NCBI RefSeq assembly: GCF_020085105.1
Contig: NC_058042.1
Span: forward strand, 23,395,501-23,459,500
DNA from: Siniperca chuatsi
Taxonomy: Eukaryota > Chordata > Actinopteri > Centrarchiformes > Sinipercidae
Direction: 5' to 3'
DNA length: 64,000 bases
Shown here: piece by piece, positions 17,774 through 43,300 of the stretch
Numbering within the stretch: position 1 is the first letter of the stretch
Layout of the letters: every line of letters begins with the position of its first letter
Translations under genes and position numbers: made by a program
Notes under the pieces: generated by a model
Told to the model about the DNA's origin: nothing
The model's database searches: none
Seen by the model: the letters and a program-made list of their open reading frames with translations, nothing else

Positions 17774-20700
17774 TCAGGGTGCAGGGTCTTGTTGATTTTG
17801 CATGCGTCTCTCTGCAGCTGCCGCCATGGTTCTACGTCTCAGCACAGTCAAGTTCAATTCTGGAAGAATGTCCTCCTCTAGTCCAGGCAAATCCTCATCC
17901 TGGTCCTCTGGACTCTTGTTCAGATATCTCCTACAGGGAAGTAATGAACAACACATGATCATGGGAGCAGGAAATGCAAGATATCGGGGGAAAGAAGGCA
18001 ACTATTAGTGAACAAATGTTACTACTTGTTAGTTCTTTAAAACTAGGCCTTTCAGTCACTCTGGTAGACAAGTAAAGAAGGCTTTTAAACATTTTACTTG
18101 TCCTGCCAGTTGATTCACAGACTGAGAAACACATTTGTTTCACAAGAAAAGGTCTGATGCAGGCTCCAGTGTGGTCACACTCCTGACCTCAAAAATGTGT
18201 TTATAAAAACAATAGCAAGAAAAAAAATTAATACATAAAAATAGCTTAGCACCACTATCTCTGAGGTGGAAAACTCCCACCAGCAGTTTACTAACCTGCG
18301 TGCCTGCAGGAGCATCTCTTCTTTCCTCTGCTTTAACATCTTCTGCCTCTCCTCAGCTGACTTAGAGAAGCGACCTCCTCTGACCTCCATGTTGTCTGAC
18401 TCACTGAGGCTCTGCTCAGCTGCTCCACTGGGCCCTTCCTGCTCATCTGCAGGGCTCACCGGTGCACGCTCTATGGCCTGAGGAAGGAACACAAAATATG
18501 TGACATACAGTTGCATTCTGCCTTTCAAGAAAACCATAGGAATGTGATAAACATGAAACAGAGAGTCGGGAAGCATTGACAGAGTTGTTGGAGAAATTAG
18601 GAGAGCATTGTTTTATTAAAACAAGGTAAGCCTTTTCAGAGGCATCAATGAAATTATGAAAAATGACACTATTTACATTTAATCCCCAGTTGACTGACCT
18701 GTGTCGGGAAGGGCACCTGGATGCGTCCTTCCAGGATGTTGTCAGTGGTGACCTCCACAGAGCGGGTCAACTGCAGGTCCTGCATCACCAGATAGGAGGG
18801 CACCTGAGGGAACATCTCCTGGATCTGATGGGCCTGATGACCAGAGGGTACATCAAAAGCAAAGAGAGCAATAGATAAATTATTTAGAGAAAGATCATTG
18901 GAGAGGGAAAAACAGAACATAATAAGTGGAAGTTAAAACTAGATTTTGTTTTAAAGGGTTACACTTACAGTACTAGTGATTTACAAGTATAAAACCGTTC
19001 AAGATACTTGGAATCTATTTGTTTAAATAGACTTGGCATCTTTTGTAACAAACAGTTTCTGCTAAATCAGTTGTTTAAATAAAGAGGTTATCACTATGTC
19101 AACAAGCATTTACCAGGACGTTAAATACCATGTGAGCAAAGTAATGATGTTAAGAGCATTAGGGCCATGGTACACAACCCAGGCAACATTTTGAGGCAAC
19201 AGACATTGGTTACTCGTAAACAGCAAGACAGGGAGTGAAAAGTAGGACAACATGATGGCAGCATTGGCTGAATGAACGAAATCAAGTGTCAAAAAAGAAG
19301 AAAAAAAAGATTCAACAACTTGCCTCAAATTGTTATCTGTGTATCATCTCTCATAAAACCAACAAGAATTTCATCAGACTGTAAACATGAACTCACCATG
19401 GCCATGAGCTGGGAGTTGTTGGCCTGAGCGATGCCCAAGATATTGGTGGTGTGCATTACTTCCACTGAGAAACTGGGCAGCCAGCTGGCAATGCGAGATC
19501 CTGTAAGAGACTTATACTGTGAACATTTCTTGGTCAACATTTTGCACATCGTCTTCGTTTTAAACACAATAGCTCTCTCATTTTAAAAACAGATCTATTT
19601 TCCATATTTTTAAAATTTTTTATTGTAAATTTCTATATTATATTTATGATTCTTGACTTTTACAGTACTTATTGTGATCGTTATTCACCAAAATACCAAG
19701 GCAAATTCCTTGTATGTGAAAACCTACTTGGCAATAAACCTGTTTCATTGTCGCACCCTATCTGATGTAAGGTAACTCAATAACCAGATTAATTCTTGGA
19801 TTTGTGTCTGACCGATTTACCATCAAAGTGGAAGAAGTGATTGTGTTGGTTGATATGTGGTCTAGCATCTGCAGCAGCTCCTACTGGGCCGATGTTGTCT
19901 TCCATTCCCCCGGCCTGCTGCTGGCCTCTTGCCTGGCCCCCGTCACCATTAATATTCAGGGATGTCCGACATGTTGGACACGAGGTGTCCTGCTCAAGCC
20001 ATGAGCGCAAACAAGAGCTGGATACACGCATGCACACACACCAAATGTTATTATGGCATTTCTCTGTATAAAAACTTGACATTAATTTCAAGGCTCAGAA
20101 CAAGTCTTCTGTAGCTAAACATCAGGATCATCTTACTGAAGCTGAGAATATAGATAAATATCCAAACAAGGAAAATCATATTACAGACGCTAAGGACTGA
20201 TCTGCAGTCAGGTTTACTACAAAAATATATATAACGTGTGCAAGACTTTGGCACTAGCCAAACTAAGGATACTGCATTCAAGGCTGGTATATCTGGTTGC
20301 ATGCTATTCCTGCAGTCTCTTCTTAAAGCCATCTTAATTCTGCAAGTAAAGATAAACTTTTTCTAAGCTACGGAGCCACAGGTCAGTGGTGCCAGTAAAA
20401 CAATCTGCAGAATACAGTCCATGCAGGGATTGCTGATTGAAAAAACACTTTACTTGTGGAAGAGATGGCCACAGGGTAGTTTGCGTGCTGTCAACATGGT
20501 ATCCCAGCAGATGGCACAATCATCATCATTAGCTGCCAGCTCCTCTGCAGTAGCAACAGCAAATCTGTACAGATAGATCCACAGTATATACAAATAACGA
20601 TGAAACAAGTAATGATCGATGGGAAATACAAAGCTTTCATTAGAAATAATTCAGTTACATAAACAGAGAACCACAAAACCATGAGGTAAAAAGGGAAAAA

Positions 20701-23905: not shown

Positions 23906-25416
23906 GGCACATTTTTATAACACGACAGGCAGAAATCACCTTCTGGTACACTAAGCCAGTCAGCATTACATCATAGGCAACATACCAACTTAATGCCGTT
24001 TTAAATTTCATTGCTTGCAAGGAGGTGATTAAATCTGATATTTTGTTTTCCCCAACATGCAGAGCATAATCTGACACAAGAACATGTTAATGTAGTGACT
24101 GAAACTGTATCAGGAGCCTAACAAGCCAGTACAGGGAACTATTAATAGATCCAGAGCTGAAAAGAGTAGAGTTACTCTCAGACTTTTGGGGGACACTCAA
24201 CACACCTTTTAAAACACCACTTTATAAAGTTGAAAAGTGCATTAATCAGATGCTGTCAAATGCCAGGTTTTTGGCTATCTTGCATTTAATCTCAGTCCTT
24301 AGGAGTAACAAGGCAGCCACAAAGAATGTAGGTCCATTCCTCTCATGTTTACTGTGTAGCATAAATAGGAACAGGTTTCATGCAGGGATATTTAGGACTC
24401 TCTCTATTATACCCTATAATATCTCATAGCAAAAAACAGACCAAACTTGTTGCAAATGGACACTTTTGTGAATAAGCTCTGGAGTTACTTGTGTAATTGT
24501 ATTGATCCCAATACCTGCTTAATGCCATACTGGCCATTTTGTATGCCCGAATCTGTGTAAGAATGGTAATGTGGTAGTCATTTTAAAAGAGCATTGGTAT
24601 ATATTATCTGCTTAGATTACCATACATGGTAGTCATAAATCATTCTATGGGACATTAGTAAAAGTAAAAAAAAGAATGATGTAGTTTATAATACTTACAT
24701 ATTCAAATCTGTCTTTGCAGAGCTGTACCATGAGGTGGAGAAAGACCAGGGCAGAGAACCACAAACACCACATGACCACCTCCTCCACTGTCTGCACGTT
24801 CAATACGCCAAAGATGAAAATGAACTTGTAGAAGATGAAGTTCCAGAATTTATCTTTGAGGTGCTGAGGAATAAACACATTACAAATGAGATGTCATTTT
24901 CTGAAAGAGGATAATAACCCAGGTATGAAAGTAGCTGTATTTATCATTTTAACACTGTTAAAGACACAGACTCACCTGCTTCTCACTGACCCTAAGCGGG
25001 CCAAACACCACATACTGAATAATTTTAGCAATTAACATCAAAGAGCAGCAGAATGTGTTGACTAAGACCTAGGGGAGTACAGAGAATAAAGTGACAATAA
25101 GTTTTCTGTCAGAACATCATCTTATCAAGCAATGCAAAATCCTAAACTGGATGACACTCACCCATACAAAGAGACTGTCAGTGACAAGATACCACAGGAC
25201 AGTGGTTGCCAATTCTGTGTTACTAATATCATTGTTTAGATGTTCAAGAGCCACTTCAGAGGGGGCTGGTGTTTCATCAGTTTCCAAGGCCCCAAACCCC
25301 GGGTCAGTCACAGTGGTGTAGGCACTGAAGATACTGCCAGCAAGCAAAGCCACACTCAGTGCTGTGTAGGTCTGCAGGCTGGGCCAAGGAAACCTCTCCA
25401 AAAACAGCAGAGGCAT
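17774..25416 (-). CDS. amfr: Autocrine motility factor receptor, E3 ubiquitin ligase gp78
   Basis: Coding exons (minus): 25416-25162, 25068-24976, 24863-24699, 22893-22741, 21837-21797, 21105-20973, 20859-20726, 20564-20454, 20017-19821, 19500-19397, 18833-18699, 18477-18296, 17930-17774. Total 619 aa, human 643. gp78 is a polytopic ER-membrane E3 ligase of ER-associated degradation, with substrates such as HMG-CoA reductase and INSIG1. Visible order: N-terminal [14 protein letters not shown], hydrophobic membrane segments to about 300, RING-H2 with CAIC at 341-344 through [15 protein letters not shown] linker, CUE ubiquitin-binding region ([10 protein letters not shown], about 440-500), G2BR helix for UBE2G2 ([18 protein letters not shown]), and C-terminal VCP/p97-binding motif ([13 protein letters not shown]). 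The ATG is preceded by an in-frame TGA, which fixes the start. The N-terminal loop after exon start is shorter and differs from human. Confidence 0.95.
22305..22445 (+). pseudogene. hAT-type BED zinc-finger remnant in amfr intron 3
   Basis: An open frame on the plus strand, opposite to amfr, reads [12 protein letters not shown]...[14 protein letters not shown]...H. The spaced Cys2-His2 pattern with [10 protein letters not shown] is typical of BED fingers at the N-terminus of hAT transposases. Nothing downstream continues as a transposase, so this is a fragment. Confidence 0.55.
23853..23901. repeat. (AC)n microsatellite in amfr intron 3
   Basis: About 49 bases of AC dinucleotides, read directly. 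Confidence 0.95.
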
Positions 25417-25484
25417 TGCAGTGTTTACGTCCACTCCTCAACCTGTTAAATGGTGTTTGTCCCGATCCAAGAACTCAACACAAC
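25417..25484 (-). other. amfr 5' UTR part of first coding exon
   Basis: The acceptor CTGCCCTCAG|GTTG lies at 25485/25484 (minus) and a TGA is in frame just upstream of the ATG. Splicing joins it to a further 5' exon. Confidence 0.6.
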
Positions 25485-26014
25485 CTGAGGGCAGAAGTGA
25501 GTTAGTAAAGTTTGGCCAACATTAGCTAAGCTGAAGTTAAGCGTAAACATTAGTTATGTTACATGCATAGCTACAAATGTGTTAGCATACGATCGTGACT
25601 AATTGGTGTTAATGTGGTGTTTAATGATTTTGAAATAGCCAGTGCAAGATTTCCATGAAGTTAGAAGACTAGCCTTAGCTAGCCGGATATGTTAGCTAAC
25701 CTACTCTCAGTTCTCAAGCAAGGCTAACTTCACGTTAGTTCATTACAGTTGGTAAAGGTGCAAATTGCTCCCGAATTGGCCTATCTTTGATGAAGTGTAA
25801 TTGATTAAAATCAAACAAAGTGAAAGCGGTGGGCCAGCGACTGGCCAACATTTATTAATGTTGGCTAAATAATACGGAGTTCACGGCCCTAACATTAGCT
25901 ATTTACCTGGCTAACGTTATTTAAGACTAGCTTAGTTGTTAGCTAATATTAGCTACGTAGCTAGCCACTGTTAGCAAGCACCAGCCATCAAGCTCGTAAT
26001 ACATCGTCACTTAC

Positions 26015-26115
26015 AGTTTGTCACAAATTTATCTAACCACAATTTCCAACGTCCTTTGTTGTATTCGGTGCTGTACTTTTAGTGCAGCTGCACTGAGAAC
26101 ATCGTTGTTGACAAC
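26015..26115 (-). other. probable amfr non-coding exon 1 and promoter edge
   Basis: A donor AACT|GTAAGTG lies at 26015/26014 on the minus strand. Sequence upstream to about 26170 is locally G/C-richer with a GGGGAGGGGAGGGG tract on the plus strand. The transcription start is not determined. Confidence 0.45.
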
Positions 26116-26764
26116 ATCGTCATGTTTATTTCACCGATCAGACAGCTGGCTGAGGGGAGGGGAGGGGAAGCTTCTTCCTCTTCTTCTTTGAAGTTTAATG
26201 GCAGCTGGTATCCTTAGTGTTGCATTACTGCCATCTTCTGGAGCTAGTTAACTCCTATAGTGTCGGGTTTGGTTTTTCCCATTATTTCTGTGCTCCTGAG
26301 TGCCTTGTCCGCTTCCACCATGCTCTTTGATCCTGCCCTTCTTAGCCCTAATCTTTTCTTCCACCATGTCCTTTCTCTCTGACATATATTTCCTGCAACT
26401 AACAAGCACATTCAGTTTCTGGTATGACATGTTCATAAAAAGATGAAGATGGTTGGATGCATCTGTGAAGTGAGCCGTTCAGATTACTGTGTCCTATTTT
26501 AATTCTAGTCATGATTACCTCCTCTTTTCTGTTTACTCCCCTATTTCTCACAATAGCTACCCACTTTATTTTAAATTGAATGTAAATGTCTTCCCCTTAT
26601 CTCCTGATCCCAGTGCTGTTACCACTATTTAGGCCTGTTGGTTTTCTTCCTTACAATGACCTTTCCCTTTGATTTTTAAAGTTTAGTAAGGATGGAGCTA
26701 TTGGCAGAAATGGAAAATAATTATGTTTTCATTAGTGTATATCACCTGAAAATAAGAATCCAGT
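26116..26764. other. intergenic, no gene recognised
   Basis: Ordinary AT-rich sequence. The open frames are short and unsupported. Confidence 0.6.
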
Positions 26765-27010
26765 TTTTGCGTTACCTTAGAATGAGCCATTTTTATCTAC
26801 AGAGGGAGCGGGTCTCCTTCCACAGAGGCCGCCATGTTGCAGAGGGTGAAACAAGCCGTATTCAAATGGTTGCAAACTGCAATTTCACCACTAGATGCCA
26901 CTAAAGTCTACATATTGGACCTTTAAATCTTAGTGTTAGAAACCTGTTTTGGTGGAACCATAGACTGTAAATAATACATTTATATACAGTCAATGGGAGG
27001 GACACATATC
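26765..27010. repeat. fish interspersed repeat fragments
   Basis: Contains CCATGTTGCAGAG, TTTCACCACTAGATGCCAC and CTACATATTGGACCTTTAA, then ATAGACTGTAAATA paired with TATACAGTCAATGG. These words recur in many fish genomes. Two separate short non-autonomous elements are likely. Confidence 0.45.
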
Positions 27011-27179
27011 ACTTGCTGCAGCAAACCCAAACGTCACTTTGAAATATAGCCACAAGCAGCAATGATCAGGGTCAAAGCAGACTGCGAGCATTTGGATGCT
27101 TGTTTCTTGTGAAATAAGAAGCAGTGCTGTAACAAGAAGCAAAACTCTTGATTTTCTTTAAACTAATTCATCGTGGTCA

Positions 27180-27954
27180 TCACTGTCGCAGTACTGGCGA
27201 ACAGGGAAAGGACCCAAACGCAGATAGGAGCAGAACGATGACTTGAGTGGTTTATTAAGGGCTTACTGGCAGTTACAGATAGGCAGACAGGTACAAAGGT
27301 TGGTTGGCTGGCAAGCAGGCAGGCAGCTATACAAGAAGCAGAGAATCCAGAGCCAATATACCAACTGGGACGAACTGACAAAGAACAAAGGAAACACAGA
27401 GACTATATACACAGGTGAGGGCAGGATAACAGGTTACACTAATTAGAGTGGAGCAAAGACTCAAAACTGGAGGGAAAAGCAAACAAAGACAGGAAGTAAA
27501 ACTACACAAGACACATGAGGCAGCACACAGAGGCAGGACATGGCTGCTGTGCTGGAACTGGTGACCGCCGTGGCGCAGGAACTGGTGTTGGCCATGCTGC
27601 CGACTGGAGACCAGGAGCAGGAGTCAGCCGGTCCACAGACTGGGGACCAGGCAGGACTGATGACGGCTCTGAGGCACTGGACAGCTTGACCTCCATGTCA
27701 GTAGACCAGTAGGCCTGGACTGGACAGACATGGTGGCAAGGTGACCCAAGGAGAGGTTTTGTCATCTGCCATGAAGACCAGAAAACTGGCTGATGCTACG
27801 AGGGCCTCCCCAGGCCAGGCGGATGCCCAGGCAGGTGCCCAGGTATGGGCAGGCCGAGGAGCAGGCCAGGAGCTAGCGGGCTGGATGCTAGCAGGCCAAA
27901 GTGCAGGCTGGGAGCTAGAGGGCCAGGAGCTAGCGGGCCATCAGAATCCCCTTA
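27180..27954. repeat. retroelement-like interspersed repeat with internal tandem motifs
   Basis: Begins with GGACCCAAACGCAGATAGGAG, a wording common to a fish interspersed repeat, and ends in degenerate short repeats of GGCCAGGAGCTAGCGGG type (27860-27940). No intact ORF. Confidence 0.4.
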
Positions 27955-29520
27955 CTACAACCTGGATATGTTTTCTATTCTTGAGGGGGAAATTAACCAC
28001 TATAAAACCACAGGAACTGTTTTGATTGTCTTGTGTGCTCGAACAGGGGAAAGAGCTGACACTATAAACGCCCAGGGAGACAAACACTTACCTGGAGGAA
28101 CCTGCCTCGACCTCCCTGAATGCCCCGATAGAAACAGCTGTGACAAGCTTACTAATACAAGTGGTTCCCAGCTTCTACAACTCTGCTGTACACTGGGGCT
28201 GTACATAGTCAATGGCAGGCTAAGAGGAGACTCTCTGGGTCACTACACTTATAGGTCAGCTCTTGGTAGTAGTACAGTAGACTATTTCATTACAGATTTA
28301 GATCTTTCAGAGCTTTCAGTCAGCCCCCTCACACCCATCTCACGGTCTATCTAAAAAGAGCCCAGTCTAATTATGGGTCCTATAGGCCCTGTCAACTGTA
28401 TGACTATCACATACTCATATAGATGGGCATGGACAGCATTGGGAAGTACCAAAAGGCATTGGAAAATTAACAAATGCATGACTTAAGATGGGGTATGCGA
28501 TTCTAATCCAGTACACGTCTTTTTGTCGAATTCAGCAAATATCTCCTCGCAGTCCGCTAGCTGTCCGTTCTGTGCGTGCGCTGAAAAAAACTCTGGTGTT
28601 TGTACACAGCCCTGGCTCTGTAAATGCGAAATAAACAAAGTGGTTCAGACCAAGCCACACAACACTATTCCAACCAAGATTTGTGTGTCAGGTAACGTTA
28701 AATGACTTGCCCACAGACATTCATCTTACCTTCTAGTTTGCAAAGATATGCTGTTGTTGTGATGTTAGCTGATGTAGCAGGAGAGTTGTGAGTATCACTG
28801 TCTGGAGCTGGTGTGCTGCTCTGGGAATCCGTCTCATCCTCTCTGGCTGTTAGAGTCGCATCAGCAACTATAGCAACAGTTTGCTAACCCATAACCTAGC
28901 TAAGATAACCCACAACCTAGCTAACATTAGTTACATTACTTGCTGTGTCATTGTTCTATACAAAGGTATTGGATTGGATTATTGAATGGTATTGTCATGG
29001 TATTGGATTTCTCCAGAATTGGATACCCAGCTTTGATTTATTTCTGTCTGAAATGTTCCCCTATAATAATTCTGATGTAAATTTGTACAAAATCAATAAA
29101 GATTTTCATCATTTGGCTTTATTATCTTTATTATCTAATTTGAAACCCTCCAGACAAAAATCTAAACCGATAAACAATAACAAATAGTTTGACATTGAAT
29201 GCAAAAACTTAAGGAAACCTTTAAGAAAATGATCAAATGAAAAACATAGAGACCTAGATAATCAAAACATATGAGTATTCAATATATTTCTATCAATTGG
29301 CAACTTTCAGACATCTGGAACAATTCATAAAATATGACCCAAATAACTATCGGTGTCACTAGTAATCTGGGAAACATACTTTGCAACATCATTAATAAAC
29401 AAATTGTCAAATTTCTTAATAACTACAATGTTTTGCACAGATGCCAAATTGGATTCTTTCCGCACAACAGCAATAACGTTTGTCCACAGCAGCGTAGACA
29501 GAATATTTGGGTAAATTAAG
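27955..29520 (+). mobile_element. degraded non-LTR retrotransposon (LINE) fragments
   Basis: Three colinear pieces on the plus strand. The first (27955-28354) resembles the LINE endonuclease domain, including LCCTLGLYIVNGRLRGDSLG and SSTVDYFITDLDLS. The second (about 29180-29290) reads ECKNLRKPLRK then SNEKHRDLDNQNI, a linker seen in fish LINEs. The third (about 29336-29480) starts DPNNYR and continues, after a frameshift, as SNLGNILCNIINKQIVKFLNNYNVLHRCQIGF, the start of a reverse transcriptase. Stops, frameshifts and an inserted element break it. It is inactive and the clade is uncertain. Confidence 0.6.
28490..28940. repeat. unrelated repeat inserted in the LINE
   Basis: Interrupts the endonuclease and linker pieces of the LINE. 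Words such as GGGTATGCGATTCTAATCCA and TCGCAGTCCGCTAGCTGTCC look like a known fish short repeat. The boundaries are estimated from where LINE homology stops and restarts. Confidence 0.4.
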
Positions 29521-30056
29521 GGTTTATTTCAACCAAACCAGATTCGGTGATTGTTGGAACAGTGGAAAGACTAACAAAGACTGTTTTGGTGAGATTAATT
29601 TAGTTTCTGTCCAGTTACGATGATCTGCAAGGTAAAATGACACAAACAAACAGAACTATTATTAACAAAATGTTGTTTCTGATATGCACTCTGGAGCAGA
29701 AGGGGGCATTAATGCACATGATTCTGGATGTCAACCATCACAAAACTACAAAAAGTGATAGAAGATTCCTTCAGAAGTAGGAATGGTTTAGCCAGTGCTT
29801 TGGATAAAGGAACTATAAAAGACCATTGACTTTTTTGTTTGCCATGTAAAGTTAATCATTACATGGCAATCAAATGTACTTAGAATTTATACTTAAATTC
29901 ATCCTGACTCACTCTTTTATATATACTGTAAGTAATAAAGTTCCTTATCAAACCAAGGTCACAGAACTGAAACAGAAAGTTCTTTTGAATAACAGTAGAT
30001 TAGCAGTCTAGTAGACTGATCAGTTTCCCATTATACATGCATACAGCACTTTATTT
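29521..30056. other. upstream region of first receptor gene, nothing recognised
   Basis: AT-rich. No promoter motif can be assigned. Confidence 0.5.
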
Positions 30057-30099
30057 TTCTTTTCATGCAGACACCACTGTCAGCACATACACTTGCAGC

Positions 30100-31074
30100 A
30101 TGAACCGCTCAACTGAGTTGTCTCTGTCAGAGGAAATGGCCCCTGAGGAGTTTGACGGTGTGACAGCAGTGGCTTGTGTTATCCTGGGCCTGTCCTTCCT
30201 GATAGGAGCTCCGGGGAACTTGGTGGTGATCTGGACTATCCTGAGACACGTCAAGAAGCGTTCTCACACTGTGGTGCTCATCCTGCACCTGGCTGCTGCT
30301 GACCTGCTGGTCCTCATCACCCTGCCTCTATGGATCTACTCCCTGGTACATACCTGGGTGTTTGGAGAGGCCTTCTGCAGGGCCTTGGTGTACATTGTCA
30401 GTGTGTGCATGTTCAGCAGCATCTACTTCATCTCCCTTATGGGTGTGGTGCGCTTTTTAGCCATTTGTCATCCATTTGTGATGATGCGCTGGGCGACCAA
30501 GCGCATTATGAACAGATGTCTTGTACTTTTGTGGCTCCTTGCTATGCTTCTAGGAGTGCCTGCTTTACTGAACCAGCCTAAGGATGAAAGAGATGGAACT
30601 GAACAGTGTTTTATCAAGGAATTCAGCTCCGTGACTCAAGCGATCATTTTGTTGTGTCTGGAGACCTTGGGGGGCTTTGTAGTTCCTTTTGTCATTCTTA
30701 GTATCTGTTACTGTCTAGTAGCTGCCCAGCTCAGGAAAATGAGTTTCAACTCCAAACAGAAATCCATGGTTCTTGTGCATGCTGTGGTGATAACCTTCAC
30801 ACTGTGCTGGTTGCCTTACCATATCATCAACATTATTGATCTGGTTTGCATCGTAGGATCAAGCACAAAACATGAATGTGTGCCGGAGAGTCTTGTCTTT
30901 AGCTCTGGTGCCCTTGTTTTCATTAGCAGTTCTGTGAATCCTGTGTTATACGCCCTCTTTGCAAGGAACTTACAAGGGAGTCTCGAGGAGTCCCGACTGG
31001 TCAGGCTGTTCCAGGAAATGGCCACTCACACCAACAAACTCAAGGAGCTGGTAGTACTACGGCAGACTGGCTAG
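30100..31074 (+). CDS. Leukotriene B4 receptor 1-like GPCR, copy A (divergent DRY motif)
   Basis: A single coding exon of 324 aa. It encodes a class A seven-transmembrane receptor of the LTB4/chemoattractant group, expected at the plasma membrane of leukocytes with Gi coupling. Landmarks: N-terminal glycosylation motif NRS; GN at 39-40 (TM1); LAAAD with Asp68 (TM2); Cys93 and a Cys in loop 2 for the conserved disulphide; CWLPYH in TM6; NPVLY in TM7. The DRY position reads V-V-R-F, so the acidic residue is Val117. The short C-terminal tail lacks an obvious Ser/Thr cluster. The ATG follows an intron-type pyrimidine tract and CAG at 30070. An in-frame upstream ATG at 30037 precedes that acceptor and is less likely. 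LTB4 assignment is by resemblance; another lipid or chemoattractant ligand is possible. Confidence 0.8.
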   Translation: MNRSTELSLSEEMAPEEFDGVTAVACVILGLSFLIGAPGNLVVIWTILRHVKKRSHTVVLILHLAAADLLVLITLPLWIYSLVHTWVFGEAFCRALVYIVSVCMFSSIYFISLMGVVRFLAICHPFVMMRWATKRIMNRCLVLLWLLAMLLGVPALLNQPKDERDGTEQCFIKEFSSVTQAIILLCLETLGGFVVPFVILSICYCLVAAQLRKMSFNSKQKSMVLVHAVVITFTLCWLPYHIINIIDLVCIVGSSTKHECVPESLVFSSGALVFISSSVNPVLYALFARNLQGSLEESRLVRLFQEMATHTNKLKELVVLRQTG

Positions 31075-31242
31075 AGGGCAGCAAATACATAGGTAGGGTT
31101 GATGTCTGACTGTGTGAAAATAACTGAATTGCTGAAACTGTGATGGTGGGAAAATGTGACATTTGTCTTCTGTAAGTAATTGGGTCAATGATGTGACACC
31201 AATTTTTTTGTGTCTGTGTGGTTTAGTTCAATTTAAAAGGAA

Positions 31243-31248
31243 AATAAA
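31243..31248 (+). terminator. poly(A) signal of receptor copy A
   Basis: AATAAA about 170 bases after the stop codon. Confidence 0.55.
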
Positions 31249-31719
31249 CTTACAAATTACTTGCATAATTCCTTTTTTTGAGGACCAGGATCAGTCAACT
31301 TAAAGGTGTTAAGGTGGTGTAACCAAATAACTTACATTCAAGGAGCCATTTTGTTTAGAGAAAGAAAAGGAGGGGGTGGAGGAAGCACAATGCATATTCC
31401 CCCTACAATTTTAAAATAATAATAATGTAATGGTAGTGATAATATTAATAAAGTAATAATAATATGAATGATAGTGATAGGAATGATAATGATAATAATA
31501 GTAATAAGACAATTGTAGAAGCAGTTGTCAAGCAGGAACACGGGGGCAGCAGGTGGCCCACATTCACACATCCAGACTCTGCAGCTCCAGAGGCAGAAAT
31601 ACCTGCCTGAAGCGACTGAAGAAGAGACAAGAGAGACAAAAAAGCGCAAAACTACAGGAGAGAGATAATGTCGAGTTAGTAACATGCATTAATGGGATAA
31701 AAATGCATACAGATGGAGA

Positions 31720-32020
31720 GGGAGAGGAGGAGAGAGAAGCTCAGTGCATCATGGGAAGTCTCCCTGCAGTCTAGGCCTATAGCAGCATAACTAAGGCATG
31801 GTTCAGGGCTCACCCAAGCCAGCCCTAACTCTAAGCTTTATCAAAGAGGAAAGTCTTAAGCCTACTCTTAAATGTGGAGATGGTGTCTGCCTCCCGAACC
31901 CAAACTGGGACCTGATTCCACAGGAGAGGAGCTTGATAACTGAAGGCTCTGGCTCCCATTCTCCCAACCTTGGTGTTTTTGGAATGTTTAGTTTTAATGA
32001 ATATTTGTATTCTATGCAAA
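31720..32020 (-). mobile_element. LINE 3' end fragment (L2-like)
   Basis: On the minus strand the frame 32019-31831 reads KVGRMGARAFSYQAPLLWNQ then VREADTISTFKSRLKTFLF, the conserved end of the ORF of fish L2/CR1-type LINEs. Plus-strand words such as CAGTCTAGGCCTATAGCAGC continue into its 3' end. It is truncated. Confidence 0.65.
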
Positions 32021-32359
32021 TTCTATTCTATTCTTTCTCAGCTTTAAAAGACCTACAACTCCAATAATTCAGTGATAGGAGAAATGTTACTCAAAGATTA
32101 AAATTTAAATACAAATAAAGAGCTGCAGGTGTGTCTGTTTGGCCGAGAGTGGGGCTGAAATACACACAAGCAGAGCAGAGAGCAGAAGACAGGATGTAGC
32201 TGGCTCCTTCCCGCAGGGTTGTGCGGAGGTGTGGGCGATTTTATTTGTGCTTTAGAACTTAACCACCGTGAAACAATCAGAAAATAATGTTTTATCTAAT
32301 TCACTGCTTTGTTATCTGATTCACTGCTGACACCGCTCCCTCTCTTTATTCATTCTCTA

Positions 32360-32995
32360 GAGCCGTGTTTCCACCAAACATTTTTGGTATAGTACCCTTA
32401 AAATCCATACCTACGTGTACCAAAACCCTAGATCTGTTTAGTGTTTCCACCATGTAGGCGTGTTGTTACCGGGGCTTCGGGGCTAATCCCCTTCAATTTT
32501 CCAGCAGTTGGGAAACAACAGAGATAATGTTCTTGGTCTTGAGAAGCTGCAGCATTTATTAACTGACACACTGTAACCTACACTGTACATTTACTGCCAG
32601 ATTGACAGTTTACTGCTAACCTTTTCCTCTGCTCACATTCACCGTCACTTTCTGCCGCTCGCGCTCTCCCTCAACCACATACTCGCTATGCGGTCACGTT
32701 TCGTGTTCTTTCTCCTCGGTATGTGGTTGTTTATTACAGCAACGATACACGCTTTGTATGAGAAAACGCTGCTTAAAGACAGGAGAGTTTGGAAAATCCT
32801 ACATCAGAGCGCAGATGACGAGACGACTTGTGGTCAGCAGTGTTTTAACTCCACCTGTTAGTATCGGCTCAGCTCGCCTGGAACCTCAACAGAGGAGTAA
32901 CGGGAAAACGGGACGCCATGGAGTGGTTCTATTGGTGCCATCCACAACTTTTCACAAATGGAAACGCGAAAATAAGCGTGTAATGAACTTAAATG
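32360..32995. repeat. possible hAT-like non-autonomous element
   Basis: GTGTTTCCACCAAAC and GTACCAAAACCC near the left edge, and a right edge with TTCTATTGGTGCC and GGAAACGCGAAAA, resemble a family of fish MITEs. The terminal repeats are imperfect and the limits uncertain. Confidence 0.35.
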
Positions 32996-33059
32996 AACTT
33001 GATTGGACTGCTTGGTATAAACGTAGAAATATTTTCTCTACACTGAAATCATAAAACAC

Positions 33060-34700
33060 CAAGTTCAGTTGACCTGGCTGACTGTCATGCTTGATTTTCA
33101 GTGTCAATTTCTTCAACAAACAATGCCTTTGACCGTAGAAGCAACATGGTCAGGTGGTGTAACTGGTTTGTGCCATTGCTTAACCAGTATTTTTTTTAAA
33201 TACAATTATGCTAATATACAGGAAAAGGAATGTGGAATAAAATGTAATCATCTATTTTAGTATAATAACATGTGTTATTCATATTTGTTTACATAATTTG
33301 TCAGAGATTATTTAGAAAACAGAGGTTTTCTGCATATGTCCTGCACAGTAGTGCAAAAATGAATAAACATTTAACTTTAGAGATAATCCTAATAAAATCT
33401 ATTTTTATGTAATATTTTAAAATTAAGTAATTATTTATGAGTACACTTAACACACACTCTAGGTGATTAAGATATTTAATATTTTTCATTCTTTTGTGGT
33501 TATACCACTTGACATTTTTAGGCACATTCTGTCTTACATTTTGTAAAAAAAAAAATGGTGCAAATGTAATTTCACATGAAACCAACATAAATACAAACTG
33601 TACATTTTGCTCATCTTGCTAACCCTTATTTGTCACTGACCCAATTAAGGGACTATACTTTATTATCAAGCCCTATATATGTTCTAAGGTTTTGATGACA
33701 AATGATTGCTGTATAGTTTAAAATTTTGAAATTGTTAAATTTTGATATGCTCCTGTATTGTATTGTATAATGTGTTTTGTATATTATCATTAATTATCTG
33801 TTTTGTGACTGGAACATTTTTATGAAATACCCCTAATTTAATGTTCTGGGAAACTGTTACAATTTTTTCTTTCTTGTTGATCATTAAAACTTGATTAGTT
33901 TATCATTCTGTCTTATTTTGGTTTAAGACAGAACAACTTGACTAGAATTCTTGCCTCTTACTAATCGCAGCTAAGCTAAAACATATTGCTAAAAAATCTA
34001 TACAGTCTATGCTAGGCTAAAAGTTATTAATAATTCCTTCAAAACAATACTGCAATATTTTATACTGAACGTGGAGCAATTATTCCCCACAAACTACATT
34101 CACAGATTAAGTCATTCCTTTGCAAGGGTGTAAGTGTAAGTACACAAACCAGGAACAGCCCATGTAAAAGCTATGGGTCACAGAATTTCATTCTATCCCT
34201 CCAAAAACACGTGATTATCTACAGTAGGACACCATTTTTAGACCCTTTTTAAAAATGTTACATGTTACCTGTATGATAGGCTTTGTTTCATTGAAAGAAT
34301 TTCACAAATTTAGTTGTTGTTTTCCATCTAATTGAATTTTTCTGTATATCATAGAAGTTTTGCAAACTTTGTCCTAGATGCTCATTAAATTGCCTCAGTT
34401 AATGGTATCCATAGGGTTACTCCTACATTTACTCTCTGGTGGGGCATCTGAGATCATTTCATTTCTGAGATTATTTCTATTTCTGTCACTACATTTTTTT
34501 TTACTTATTTGAAACTCTTTTCTAAATCACTTGGACCACACACTTCTTGTAATACCCTAATCGGGACCTGAGGTGAAAAATGAACTTATGACGCATGCAT
34601 GAATCACCCAGCTGTGTCTCAAATAGCCCTGTGAGGAACCCCCTTTCCTGTGCAGCCTATTCTTAAAGGGAAGTGGAGACTTGCTTGTACAGCATTTTGT
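33060..34700. other. intergenic between receptor copies, no gene recognised
   Basis: Very AT-rich. It has short unsupported frames only, and no sequence shared with the upstream region of copy A until about 34690. Confidence 0.6.
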
Positions 34701-34745
34701 TTTTCTTTTCATGCAGACACCACTGTCAGCACATACACTTGCAGC

Positions 34746-35825
34746 ATGAACCGCTCAACTGAGTTGTCTCTGTCAGAGGAAATGGCCCCTGAGGAGTTGG
34801 ACGGTGGGACAGCAGTGGCTTGTGTTATCCTGGGCCTGTCCTTCCTGATAGGAGCTCCGGGGAACCTGATGGTGATCTGGACTATCCTGAGACACGTCAA
34901 GCAGCGTTCTCACACTGTGGTGCTCATCCTGCACCTGGCTGCTGCTGACCTGCTGGTCCTCATCACCCTGCCTCTATGGATCTACTCCCTGGCCCACTCC
35001 TGGGTGTTCGGAGAGGCCTCCTGCAAAGCCATGGTGTTCATGACCAATGCCTGTATGTATAGCAGCGTTTTCCTCATTACCCTTATGAGTGTGGAGCGCT
35101 TTGTGGCTGTGCGCTATCCTTTTGCGTCAGTTGACTGGAAGAGGAAAAAAGCTTTGAATAAAGTTCTGCTGGCTCTGTGGACTGTAGCATTCTTGTTCAG
35201 CATACCTGTCATCCCAACTCAGGTTCTAGGGAAGGATTCTAGCGGGGAGCACTGTCTATATCGGAATTACACCTCTGTGACCCAGGAGCTGGTGTGTGTG
35301 CTGCTAGAGACACTGGTGGGCTACATAGTACCCTTCTCCATCCTCGTGGTCTGCTATGGCTGCCTGTGCAGCCGGATTACTCAGATGACCTTCAAATCCA
35401 AGCGCAAGTCCACTGTCGTGATTGCCAGTGTAGTGGTCGTGTTTGCCATTTGCTGGACACCTCATCACATAGGAAACGTCCTCTCAATCATCATCCTGGC
35501 CACTGAAGACTCTGATGCAGCAAATAATATGGAGAATTTCAGGAACACCATGGCCTTCATCGCTGGAGCCATGGTCTTCATCAGCAGCACTGTCAACCCC
35601 ATCCTCTACATGTTGGCAGCTCGCTCCTTCAGGAGCTCCCTGCATGACACCGGCATCCAGAAGCTCTTCCACCACATCTCCAGCACCTCCCCAGGTGAGG
35701 GTAATAGAGAGGTGTCCTTTGTGTCCAAGAGACACAGCAATCAGACCAGCAGTTCTCAGTGTGTGACTGAGTCAAAAAACCAAATGGACATATTAATAAA
35801 AATGTGTGAAAATAATCCATCCTGA
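34746..35825 (+). CDS. Leukotriene B4 receptor 1-like GPCR, copy B
   Basis: A single coding exon of 359 aa, close to BLT1 length. The seven-transmembrane class A layout has GN at 39-40, Asp68 in TM2, Cys92-93 region and loop-2 Cys, E-R-F at the DRY position (Glu117-Arg118), CWTPHH in TM6, NPILY in TM7, and a Ser/Thr-rich tail (HHISSTSPGEG, then SNQTSSSQ) suitable for kinase phosphorylation. Its first 80 residues are almost identical to copy A 4.6 kb upstream, while the rest is only moderately similar. The same CAG acceptor-like sequence precedes the ATG, so a 5' non-coding exon is probable. This copy keeps all activation motifs and is likely the conventional receptor. The ligand is inferred. 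Confidence 0.82.
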   Translation: MNRSTELSLSEEMAPEELDGGTAVACVILGLSFLIGAPGNLMVIWTILRHVKQRSHTVVLILHLAAADLLVLITLPLWIYSLAHSWVFGEASCKAMVFMTNACMYSSVFLITLMSVERFVAVRYPFASVDWKRKKALNKVLLALWTVAFLFSIPVIPTQVLGKDSSGEHCLYRNYTSVTQELVCVLLETLVGYIVPFSILVVCYGCLCSRITQMTFKSKRKSTVVIASVVVVFAICWTPHHIGNVLSIIILATEDSDAANNMENFRNTMAFIAGAMVFISSTVNPILYMLAARSFRSSLHDTGIQKLFHHISSTSPGEGNREVSFVSKRHSNQTSSSQCVTESKNQMDILIKMCENNPS

Positions 35826-36129
35826 TATTGAAAATGTAGTGCTTGTGCTTGTGTCTCTGTGGAGACATTCATGTGTATATTGTATGTATTTGACACATTT
35901 TGTACATTTTGTATGAAATTACAACACAGATGAACCAGAAGTCAGAGTTTGTGCCATACTTGTCCAACTTTGTAAATGATCTGTTTTATATGTTTACGTT
36001 TTTTAAATGATAAACATATATTTATAAATATGTTATATATTATGTACTTAGATTTATGACATATAGTATTCATAACATAATACAATAAATAATTGTATGT
36101 GCATAAGACATGTCTCAAGTCTTTGTAAA

Positions 36130-36135
36130 AATAAA
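36130..36135 (+). terminator. poly(A) signal of receptor copy B
   Basis: AATAAA about 300 bases after the stop. An earlier AATAAA-like site lies near 36083. Confidence 0.5.
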
Positions 36136-36139
36136 GTCT

Positions 36140-39100
36140 TTTTTTTATTAGTTTTGATGATGCTAACAAAGGGAAATTGTAAGGAGTATCTCATTGACTC
36201 TGTTTAAGGAATTTTAATTTTCCCTTTCGCCACAGAGAAGTATTTCTCTCACAGTTTTCGCTGTCTCGATGGAGATAAGACTTTAAGAACTTTCCAATCT
36301 TGCTGTCTCTTTCAGTGTTGGGAAACTGTAACTTTGATTCAGTCTAATTGTGTCATTGTGAACTCATGTAACAAAACTGTTGTTCAAACTTACGACTATT
36401 GTAAAAATGTTTTTCACTTGTGACAAATTGGCTAACAATTGTCATGGTATACCACTACAGACAACAGTCATGCTCTCAACTTCCTCTCCATGAAGAGATT
36501 GCAAAATGAAAAACTGCATGTTCCCTTTGCTGTGCAGCAAAAAGCGGAATCATGTCTTAATGTTTGTCACAGTCTTATAAAACTCAAACCCACACTTTTA
36601 AATGAGAGAGGGCAGCGTCAGCTTATTTACTGATATTTTTAAATGCATATGTCAGGTAGAAATTTATAATATATATTTATATTATATTTATAATATACTC
36701 ATAGCATAGTAAGTTTGTCTGTTGCCATGACTACACAAAAATTGTACTCACCAATTGACACAGCCAGTAGATAGCAGTGGCACTGTGTTTTTAAATTATA
36801 ATAATGTTTTTATTTCACTATCCCATTGTAGGCCTTTTTTAACTGTATCTATACAGGGAATGGTCATTTTGAAATTTTATTTTTCAGCACTGCCTTTTTT
36901 CATACACCACAAACATTTATAACCTGTGTGTTGACACACAGCAGCTATGCTGGAGCAGTTAAAGTGGAAGGAACTAATCTCTTCCAGGAGACACTCTTTC
37001 TATACATTTTACAAATGTGACCAAATGGTTGGTAATAAATATAGGTAGAAAATGTCACTTTGCATCTGAATCAATAACATTTATTTCACCTTGATAGGAC
37101 TCAAAACTATTTCAGGCTGACAAAAAGCTATGGCTCATGTTCTTTCTGGGCAGCTCAGAGTAGACTGGATGTACTTATAGGGAACATATAGGGAAGACAG
37201 TTCAAATGTAAAGTTTTGAAAGAAAAAAAAAGTTCAGCAGACATTTGGAAGAATTTATATTCCACACTAATGATTTCCCCATTTGTATATTGTGTTAAAT
37301 ACTTTGAGATGATGACGCTTCACCTCTTTGGAGCCTTTGAATATTAGTGAGTCAGGATTATTTTAACTGTGACAGTGGAAAGTTACAGCAAACAAAGGGT
37401 GTGACAAAGAAATACATGTCAGACGAGATCACACAAGAAAACATAGCTAACCCTGAGACACACTAGACCTTTTCTCACAGAATGAGGACGCCACATGTAT
37501 ATGAGGCAACAACAGCAGTGTGGTATGTGCCTAATGTACCCATTGCCTTTCATTATGGGTATACACTGTACTCTAATTGAATTAACACTTTGTTCTTTAT
37601 GTTCTGAATAGATCATAGGTTTTGTTAAATAATAAAATACTGATGCATAATTAGATACAAAGGTGAAAAATAATGTAGGCATACATATACTCTTAGTATT
37701 TAACATGCGGTGACATGTTGGGGTCACTTTAAATTGATCCCGTTTTGCCTTCAATACCTGCAACCTACATTTTTTGTTTTGTAAACATATTACTATAATC
37801 CCTTTACATGTAACCCATACTTCCCCCAGCTAAAAGTACACCATAGGAGGGGACCTGCCAATGGGATAACAAATCTTGGCTATCCCTAAAGTTCACTTAG
37901 AAGTGTTGGTTGGCATAACACACTGGTTTTGCCACTGGCTTGGTAGAAGACCTGCAAACACCTCACATTACATGATACCACTGACACCAAAGAAAAGATC
38001 ATTTCTGTGTTACAGCGGTGGCTCATACAGACTGCCTTCTCAGTTGTACATCTTTCTTTCTTTCTTTTTTTTACCAATTACACCTGCTGAAAGAAAGACT
38101 TAGCTTATCATTTTGTTGCCACAGACAGACGACATGTGTAAGCATGCCTACTATGTGATGTCATGAAGATAAATGTTCTTTGCTGTTGTTGTGGGGAAAT
38201 ATCATAATGCGTCTAGGATTTCAGCTGAAGTGTTTCCCAGTGTGCCCCTCAACTAATCAGACTGAGTTCAGCTGGAAATAATGATTCCACATAAGGAAGG
38301 AGACACTGGGAATTACTCTTCAGATTGGGGGATTTAAATCAGTGAAAGGAGGTGAAGAGACAAAAAGCCTCGCATTCACTACAGTCCTCTGGCCCATAGT
38401 GAGCAGAGATGGGAGTGTCCGGAGTAACAAAACAGGGCATTCTGGGAACCTGGCCAAAGACTAGTGAAAACTCCAGCAGGCCAGTAAGGACCTGTGACGT
38501 TATTGAAATTTCTAGATTATATATTGTTGCCCTTTTGAAGCACCATGTTTTTTTTCAATATGAAAGCTGCTCATAGATAAAAATATAGCCATGCTAAAGA
38601 GTGTGAGACAAATATGTGACCAGAAAAAGAAAAAAATACAGCACAGTGACAGTAAGTTATATACCACATCCCAGTGTGAGTGTAAAGCAGCACAGCAGCA
38701 GGGATTTTTAAAGGATGAATTAGGATCACTAGGTGAAAACATGCAATAAACAATAAATTAGATGCTACTTTCCATTATGTACAGGCTGATTCTACTGTTA
38801 TTTATTTGTTCTCTATCTGCATGTGTCTGTCTGTGTGTTTGTTTTTCTTTCTTTTCTTCCCTCCTCCTTTACTTCTGTCCTTGCTGCATTCCCTTCTACA
38901 TTTTACCTAGAATTGCCTTACTGTAAACAAACCTATAGAAACTTAACCCAATAGATGTAAATTAGTCTTCCTGTCAATGTCATAATCGCAATCATTCATC
39001 CATTTACAATTTCAAACATTTGGTGAATATATGACCTTATATGGTGCATGTGTACAGTTTTGCATCTGCATAACATGAGTGAAAAAATTGTTTCCAACTC

Positions 39101-39889
39101 CTTTCCACCACAGAGTACTTTAGACTGTGCACCTGCCAGTTTGCCAGGTGCAGATCATTGCATTGAATAAGCCAGAGGGTAAAATCTGTGTATATGCTGC
39201 AAAATGTTATTTTAATGCTGGATCAGCTTAGTTGCAGTAAAACACTGCTACCGACTTCCACAACATGTATTTGTTAATAGACCTAATGTTCCCTGATTAA
39301 TATAGATCCCACAAGTAATGTTGTTCATGTCCACAAGTTCTGCCAATAAACTTTACACTCTGTCAAAATTAAGTAAAGAGGTTATGCAATGTTTATCCAC
39401 AGTGAAGTAATGAACATATAATAAATTAATTTGTGTGAATTTCTGAGCTAAAATACCACCACAAGGACAGTATGTTCAAAAAGGTCAGATACTGTCATCC
39501 TTCAAATTGTAACACAGATAAAAACCTGGGGAAAGAGGTATAGGACAGACAACAAATATTAACAGGATACACAAATGTTACATCTCCATCTCAGTTTACT
39601 AAAGTTCCTAAGTTCATATTATCAAACTCTTTTTAGAAAAAGATGCACTCTAAGTCACATTTTTGGAGACTATTATTTGATGCAAATTTTTTCAGCACTT
39701 GACCTAGTACAAAACTAATCTGAATAGAAAATAATAAACCTTTTAAACACTCTTAAAACATTCAAAACTTGCCCAGCGACTGCAGGTGCTGCTCATTTAC
39801 TCTACACTATCAGTGTAAAACAGCAGTAGCCTTTATGCCTCATTGAGGTATTACAGCCTTATTATTTTGCCAGACAACTTCCTGATTCA
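36140..39889. other. gene-free interval upstream of esrp2
   Basis: AT-rich with no recognised exon, RNA gene or complete mobile element. A GC-richer patch at about 38220-38480 shares short blocks with esrp2 intron 9 (see findings) and might be regulatory. Confidence 0.55.
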
Positions 39890-40354
39890 ATAGGACTGAC
39901 CAATGAGATTACAGCACTCACCACAGCGTCCCGCCCTCACCTTTCCAAACCAGCCAATAGACGACGCCACTGGAACTCTTCTCGCGCACAGAGGCCGAGC
40001 CACACAGGTAACTCCGAAAAAAAAAAAAAACAGAAAGGAGAGGGGGGGACAAAACTCCAGGGCTTGTTATGGAGTTCGTGTGAAAGAAACACGGATTTCC
40101 ACCCGTCTTTACTAGTTAAACCAGTATCTCTGGATAGAACACACTCAAGTACTTCAACAGGTAGAGTCTCTGGTCGCAAACTCTTTCGTGGCTCCTCTGA
40201 AAATAATCTCCCCCCCCTTTTCTCTCTCCGTTTACCTCAATTGAGTTTCCAGCCCTTTTGTTCGCTCTTCTTATCACTTGGATAAAGGTGAACCCTCGTG
40301 TTATTTTTATTTTAATCTTTGCTTTAATTGTAGTTTTTACCCTTGTGGTCCCTG
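39890..40354 (+). promoter_or_regulatory. esrp2 promoter and 5' UTR
   Basis: Two CCAAT boxes (39900-39904, 39954-39958), a GC-rich CCCGCCCT stretch and E-box-like CACCT/CAGGTA words lie in a locally CpG-rich segment ending at the coding ATG. ZEB/SNAIL factors repress mammalian ESRP genes through such E-boxes. That the same holds here is inference. Confidence 0.45.
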
Positions 40355-43300
40355 ATGGCTTCGCACAGTGATACTCTGGTGGTGTTCTTTGGGGCAACAG
40401 CTGGTGCAAATGGGGGTAAACTGGGTTCGGATGAGAGGGAAATAATTCTCTTGGTGTGGCAAATTGTGGATCTACATGAGAAAAAGGTACGGACCTTTCT
40501 GACCCGTTCGTTCGTTGTACGGTTTCTTATGTATCCAGAATGTTTGTGGCATAGTGTCTACCTGTAGTGGAACAGTATGTTTGACATTTAAATCAACATG
40601 GTGTGCTCTCTGAAGGCGTCTGTAGCCTGCTTTTCTCTTATGCTAGCTAACGCTACATCAGTTCTCTGTCCAGCCGTCTTGTTAGCTCACCTTTTAACAG
40701 GTGTGCAACGTAAAATTTAACAAGCAGGTGAGGAGTTTAATTTCACATAATGGAGAAAACACCTTTTTGGTTTGGCATGTCAGCTTCTTGATATAAACAA
40801 ATCTTTATTGACAATTACGTGCTTTTTGCAACTACATTGTCAATTGTTTGTTTGACCTTTTTTGTAAGAGTTCATTTCCTGAATGTGGGGGCTATAGCCT
40901 ATAATTTTCCATAAATTAGCTTCTTTTTTCACGCTGTATTCTACGCCCTGAAACGCTAAATCCCTTCCCAGGTCGGAAAGCTTCAGAGATGTCTTGTCAA
41001 GCCAGACACTTTGGAGCTGACAGACCAGTGCAAAGAGGAGACAGGACTGACTCTGGACGACATCATCAAAGCTGAGCCCCTGGATAAAGTTCTGCAACAG
41101 GTGAGTCTTATTGGTCACCTAAATGCAAGGGTCATTTCAACATATTTAAATATCCCATAAGGAACCTTTCCCATCTAAAATAGGCCTTAAAAGTCCTGGT
41201 GTTCATTTCACACCAAATTAGAAATCTCTCACTGGTGTACTTAATTTATACAGTATGAAAAGCACAGCAACAGCTCCTAAGAGCTCTTTGCCATTGGTAA
41301 CATTATGAGAAATTCAGAAGCTAGTTTAAACCAAGTCAACTTTCCTGTGAAGGTTTGGCCCAGAGCGAGATGAGACATGACAAGCCTGACTCTGTATTAA
41401 TAAGTTAATGTGAGGAGAGTCAAATTTCCCTGATGACCTTTTAGAAAAATGGTCTTCTTCATCTTGGTTGAGATGTGTCATTGGTTTGACCCTGACAGAC
41501 TGACAAACTCTGCTGACAGTTTGTAGAAGCTCAGGGGCTAGGACAGGCAGAGCCCCAGGTATCTGGAGATAAGGAGGAGTCGCAGGTCTAGTCTTGTCTC
41601 AGCCTGATGCATGCTGCAGACATCTGGAAAGCGGAATGTTTACCTGAAGCCGCACCTCTGTTTTAGGCTGCAGGACAGATAGGAGGGGAGGCTTTCAGGT
41701 TTTGGGCTTCATCCTCAGTAGTTGGTTACAGCACTTCTTTAGGACCTAGACGGGCTTTTTTTGCTTTCTGCTTCCTCCCTGTCAGGAGGTGTGCTTTGAC
41801 AAAAGTGTTTGTGTTGCCAAACTTGCTTTTCAACCACCCTCGCAAGAGTGTTTGTTTGCACTGGATGCATCTTTCCCGCCCCTCCAGTTTTTCAGAAAAA
41901 CCTCATTAACATGCTGGAAGAACAGTGTGTTAGGGTTGATATTAGTGCTGTTGTGGTGTGAATGCTGTGCATGCACAAGTAGGTAGCTTGGGGTGATCGA
42001 TTGAAAAGGGGGTTGTTTTCTTTAAATTATTTCTGGGGCTTTTATAGCAACGATTCTGCTGGGGTTATGACACTCAACGCATAACCTGACAGTTAAAATT
42101 TCATGAGATTTTGGTCTAAATGCTGAAGTAATTTGTGCCTCAAAGACCTGGTAAGACTTCAGCTCTACTGTAGGTTAGTTTGTGTGCTGAACCTTCAAAT
42201 ATTAACCCAAGCAATCAGTTCGTTCTTTTCATACCTTTGTCTTGCCGGTTACTTTCTCTCACTGTTAGTCATTCTGAGATTAGTTTTATCCCTGACACAG
42301 GGTAGAAAAGAAAATGGGCATTTTAGTAGCATGTAGTTCAGTTGTTTTGTATTTTTCCATAGATGGGGTAACCCATTCCAACTTATTCAATGATAGAGGG
42401 GAAACAAGCAGCTACCTCTTATTGATGTACTTGCTGTATTGACCTGTGTGGTCAGAGCCCCCAAAGACATCTGTTGGTTTTCTTTAATGAAAGATTTATT
42501 AAGGCAGAGAAGGGTGAAGAGATTAGCAGGGCTGTTTAACACTTGGCTTCCATACAGTTTGCCAGCTAAACTCCGTAACATTGTGATTGTGAGTGCATGT
42601 TTAATTTCAGACCTAATCTGTCTGAAACATCATTTCACATGTGAATACACCCGATAAGGAAAAAAAAATAATAATTTTTTAAAAAGTGTGAATGCTAAAT
42701 AACATGTATCAGGGCTCTGTCAGAATACATTGATGTGCAAGATGATGGACAACATGCAATACTTGGGCTTGTGTTTTAGGACTGTAGCTGTAACATACAT
42801 TATGGTGTGTGCACGTCACACCTGCAGTTCAGTGTGGTTCCTGGGAGAGGGCTGATGGTTTATAGGCTGACTGTACAGGCTTGGCTGCTTTAGTCCAGGA
42901 CATTGAAAGCATGTTGCAGCCTGTAGGGAGCTGCAGGTGATGTGAGACCTCACACACCTTGTTGTTGTTGTTGTTGTTGTTGTTGTGAAACTGAAACAGC
43001 CATATTGTGACATGGTTAACATGATGAATCACATCTAAGAATGATTCACACAACCTGGGTTTTAACACTATGGCAAACGGCTGTATAAAGATGACACACA
43101 CATCTGTCTGATTTGTAAGAACCCAAACCTATGAAATAAAGTTATTGAAGCTCATCATCATAGCTCTCTCATCTCTGCTGAGTGTGTCTAAAGAGTCCTA
43201 AAACCAAAATGTCAAGTTAATGCCTCTACAAAAGGACGTTCTTGACAATAACTTGATTACTTTAAAATCATGTTTACACTCATGTCTAACTTAACTTTGC

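Follow-up and report, generated by a model that had tools for sequence, protein, structure and literature searches.

Ectopic (non-allelic) gene conversion has very probably taken place between two old, tandem receptor paralogues of Siniperca chuatsi, here called copy A and copy B, judging from the pattern of identity between them. Both lie on the same strand, with their starts 4646 bases apart, in the stretch of 64,000 nt analysed here (the window; assembly GCF_020085105.1, NC_058042.1, forward strand, 23,395,501-23,459,500), and all positions given below are window positions (Table 1). Beyond a near-identical start, the two proteins are only about 38% identical over the 242 codons that can be aligned from codon 83. 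A third receptor copy was not found when both proteins were compared with the window by tblastn (E up to 10), the best other match covering 24 residues at E 0.12.

Table 1. Coordinates of the receptor genes and of the zones of shared sequence within the window
Feature	Position	Strand	Basis
Copy A, 324-aa class-A GPCR, frame intact, VVRF at the DRY position (codons 116-119)	30100..31074	+	Pfam 7tm_1; LTB4 receptor 1
Copy B, 359-aa class-A GPCR, frame intact, VERF at the DRY position	34746..35825	+	Pfam 7tm_1; LTB4 receptor 1
Candidate recent conversion tract, copy A (probable 5' intron end, acceptor-like CAG 30068-30070, leader, codons 1-82)	30042..30346	+	ML segmentation, dS 0.015
Partner of the recent tract, copy B	34688..34992	+	Same alignment, offset 4646
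Intermediate zone, copy A (approximately codons 83-119, from the first extracellular loop to TM3), probably converted earlier	30347..30456	+	83/110
Partner of the intermediate zone, copy B	34993..35102	+	Same comparison

Local alignment and ungapped comparison of 30042-30346 with 34688-34992 revealed 298 identical bases out of 305, with two of the differences in non-coding sequence and five in codons 1-82, and 300 bases of this tract were returned as a 98% repeat in a repeat search. The five coding differences, which the sequence-only reading had also counted between 30100-30339 and 34746-34985, are located at positions 30153, 30161, 30220, 30223 and 30256; as it stated, four of these change the amino acid (from A to B: F18L, V21G, V42M and K53Q), while one is silent. 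The tract runs seven bases past 30339 and reaches 58 bases upstream of the ATG, so that the earlier reading was right to extend the similarity over the acceptor-like CAG, but short in its estimate of about 40 bases. Within this non-coding flank (30042-30099), 56 of 58 bases are identical between the copies. The left edge is sharp, with only 17 identical positions among the 62 bases directly upstream, and is situated just before a pyrimidine-rich stretch and the acceptor-like CAG, where the sequence is probably the end of a predicted 5' intron. When 25000-33000 was compared with 33001-43000 by BLASTN (E up to 1), a single substantial alignment was obtained (30042-30456), and the six remaining matches of 14-27 bases (E 0.067-0.82) are at chance level. 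In copy A, a self-complementary stretch of 41 bases (29834-29874; 83%, E 5e-4) lies upstream of the tract, at a distance of approximately 170 bases.

On the downstream side, identity declines in two steps, to 83 of 110 bases in 30347-30456 and then to 54 of 114 in 30457-30570. The first of these edges lies approximately at what we take to be the end of TM2, and the second coincides with the DRY motif (30456). The drop beyond TM2 described in the sequence-only reading is therefore real, but it is not the single abrupt edge that was envisaged, as a partly diverged zone of 110 bases comes next. When the ungapped comparison over 29800-30700 was segmented by maximum likelihood and the model chosen by BIC, four segments were favoured (BIC 858.7; 866.8 with three segments and 866.3 with five, a gain of 8), with identities of 27% up to 30041, 98% in 30042-30346, 75% in 30347-30456 and 50% afterwards. 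A tract of high identity lies between two regions where identity is much lower, as is looked for in gene conversion.

The same step is evident at sites where the encoded amino acid is unaffected. Nei-Gojobori estimates are low in codons 1-82 (dS 0.015, dN 0.023) and far higher in codons 83-120 (dS 0.64, dN 0.25), while silent sites are saturated from codon 121 onward. All of the comparable fourfold sites are identical in codons 1-82 (48/48) and 83-120 (8/8), as opposed to 8/29 in codons 121-324 (Fisher, first versus last, 1.1e-12). Among degenerate codons specifying the same amino acid in both copies, identity falls from 73/74 (codons 1-82) to 13/17 (83-120) and 14/43 (121-252), with Fisher values of 8e-16 for the first against the last zone, 0.0035 for the second against the last and 0.0039 for the first against the second. 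These counts leave out ATG and TGG, in which silent variation is not possible, and end at codon 252; where both codons are included and the last zone is extended to codon 324, the counts are 77/78, 16/20 and 23/71, and the Fisher value for the second zone is 0.0002. The longest run of identical codons comprises 37 of the 158 same-amino-acid degenerate codons (105 of which are identical), and chance is excluded as its source, since none of 100000 permutations reached this length. The ratio of four amino acid-changing differences to one silent difference within the tract is not notable given the numbers of sites available (approximately 179 changing and 67 silent), the similar dN and dS values (both near 0.02) and the tiny counts. 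Silent and non-coding sites have been homogenised along with the amino acids, a further hallmark of gene conversion.

The intermediate zone suggests a more complex history. The proportion of silent differences (pS) is 0.43 (0.21-0.69) in codons 83-120 versus 0.78 (0.67-0.91) in codons 121-242. As the zone edges were picked from the same data, the plain Fisher values for this zone are optimistic. In a permutation of the silent codons between codons 83 and 252 in which the boundary was searched anew, 278 of 20000 cases gave a step at least as large (about 0.014); the equivalent permutation on all bases gave 0 of 5000, but also carries protein constraint, making the silent-codon version the fairer test. 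The end of the zone was placed at codon 119, position 30456, by both searches. The right edge is thus probably composed of two overlapping conversion tracts, the older overlaid by the recent one, an interpretation that the sequence comparison supports moderately. Amino acid identity in the zone is 0.53, versus 0.29-0.42 in thirteen later windows of 38 codons (the first three of which overlap the zone), and protein constraint may add to the likeness of the second zone. A single conversion event, with constraint making the neighbouring zone look younger, is also compatible with these data. Under the two-tract reading, an earlier conversion would probably have ended farther downstream, at the DRY motif (30456), and the last 110 bases of that tract would have diverged since. 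A later break in one copy would then have been mended with the homologous start of its partner as template, approximately 305 bases being copied, from the probable 5' intron end to TM2, without exchange of the flanks.

Several other explanations were considered. A recent whole-gene duplication was rejected, given the silent-site saturation from codon 121 onward, in agreement with the earlier argument that such a duplication cannot produce this step. The alternative raised alongside conversion, replacement of an exon by splicing, fits badly, as the right edge falls within a continuous frame whose alignment to the solved LTB4 receptor 1 chain runs across this point, and a shared or alternatively spliced first exon was rejected because each copy's own frame runs through this edge. 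Assembly error, whereby one N-terminal block has been placed at both loci and the seven mismatches are allelic differences, is improbable, although it is the least improbable of the competing accounts: seven differences in 305 bases are within the allelic variation of some fish and hence compatible with it, but both frames are intact across the right edge and the intermediate zone found there is not expected of a misplaced block.

The tandem, same-strand layout, with 4646 bases between the starts, would suit the origin of a hybrid gene through unequal crossing-over or partial duplication, with a third copy lost afterwards or the locus rearranged further. In a simple hybrid, however, the identity with its partner would continue far upstream, and here it stops 58 bases before the ATG, on which ground a simple unequal crossover was rejected; the tblastn search of the window likewise yielded no third receptor copy, and the scenario as a whole appears very unlikely. 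The least credible account is that the two starts have stayed alike since the old duplication through purifying selection, acting on the protein itself or on some overlapping regulatory element. TM1-TM2 is generally conserved in class-A receptors, which would favour this account, but all 48 comparable fourfold sites agree and dS is 0.015, yet four of the five coding differences change the amino acid; in addition, the flank is near-identical and the step occurs inside one reading frame. It was rejected on these silent and non-coding sites. Localised gene conversion, as the sequence-only reading had proposed, best accounts for a dS that rises from 0.015 to saturation inside a single open reading frame, the inclusion of the non-coding flank and the sharpness of the left edge and of the first right edge.

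The direction of transfer can be given only as a lean towards copy B as the donor and copy A as the recipient, which seems more likely than the reverse. Third-position GC in the tract (56/82 in A and 57/82 in B) is nearer to that in the remainder of B (150/239) than of A (107/204), and in codon usage the tract is closer to the remainder of B than of A by 14.7 log units (bootstrap interval 2.6-27.7), a value which exceeds those of all 25 held-out, overlapping windows of A (highest 3.2). The held-out control nevertheless assigned 16 of 32 B windows to A (scores -8.4 to 8.3) and five of 25 A windows to B, and the direction is kept as a lean because the codon-usage test does not reliably recognise B. 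The CpG and GC content of the tract gave no clear signal of direction.

The Pfam 7tm_1 model was matched by copy A with 180.1 bits (E 7.3e-53) and by copy B with 167.8 bits (E 4.2e-49), relative to a cut-off of 30.5, and copy B also passed the threshold of 7TM_GPCR_Srsx, a related model. Among solved structures, LTB4 receptor 1 is the best match of both copy A (E 1.2e-47; best 60 of 792 matches) and copy B (E 5.8e-45; best 60 of 804). As this comparison covered solved structures alone, LTB4 receptor 1 is the nearest solved relative, and the label "LTB4R-like" used previously holds in that sense, but does not by itself settle the identity of the genes. No match named GPR190 occurs among those listed (the best 60 of 792 for A and 60 of 804 for B, solved structures only). 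The pair may alternatively represent the fish orphans GPR190A and GPR190B, which are candidates alongside LTB4R (BLT1) and LTB4R2 (BLT2), and LTB4 binding is only putative. Unlike the LTB4 receptors, copy A does not have the acidic E/DRY residue: at 30445-30456 a valine takes its place (VVRF versus VERF in B), with the receptor intact in other respects. In one viral receptor, high basal signalling is reportedly due in part to a VRY variant (PMC12462484), and by analogy the VRF of copy A could possibly allow ligand-independent signalling; loss of function is equally possible. Two short peptide patterns were searched in each of two contig collections, viral_contigs and genome_contigs, comprising viruses and prokaryotes; 25 and 200 stretches, respectively, matched a pattern, of which none (0/25 and 0/200) were confirmed as relatives.

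Elsewhere in the window, an open reading frame on the minus strand (18178-18576) contains the Pfam G2BR domain of the E3 ligase gp78 (E 6.8e-10) and is probably part of an AMFR-like gene; it had no match in solved structures. The open reading frame at 57227-57595 matches residues 25-79 of Epithelial splicing regulatory protein 1 (E 4.2e-17), and is probably an ESRP-like exon. Long self-complementary stretches at 1478-1746 (80%) and 52490-52739 (67%) are perhaps the remains of foldback transposons. A further open reading frame (27845-28354) presumably resembles a retrotransposon endonuclease fragment, and no Pfam family was matched by it up to E 1.

Non-allelic gene conversion has been described in the tandem opsins LWSa and LWSb of medaka, where at least two events were inferred (PMC6389941). 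These are likewise tandem class-A receptor paralogues with conversion of part of the gene, but the medaka copies are highly similar, unlike A and B with their approximately 38% identity past the tract, and the medaka study compared orthologues of a sister species, while conversion between A and B is read from this one sequence. Another study describes conversion between RH2B and RH2C of medaka and, in the cichlid RH2a opsins, possible conversion of intronic sequence, for which regulatory constraint is the alternative (PMC3514295). Closer to the present receptors, GPR190A and GPR190B are described as orphan clades near LTB4R, with cited gar identifiers that differ by two and internal duplications of GPR190B in fishes (PMC6504862); by description, they resemble A and B in being fish receptors near LTB4R with two subtypes. 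Passages on zebrafish ltb4r2a/b (PMC10790086) have no bearing on conversion in the A/B pair, and among the open-licence papers listed no title or abstract opening reports conversion in this receptor pair.

The A/B case is another instance of a documented, ordinary process, in a little-studied pair with a strongly diverged remainder, and illustrates cleanly how conversion may affect only part of two paralogues that have diverged deeply. A broader functional reading, which we regard as rather doubtful, is that repeated conversion from the N-terminus to TM3 keeps a shared entry module (leader and TM1-TM2) while selection separates the ligand-binding and signalling parts, with copy A carrying a VRF, possibly ligand-independent, switch. 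By inference from the conversion itself, orthology could be misassigned where trees are built from such pairs over their full length, and any probe or guide directed against the first 300 bases would match both genes.
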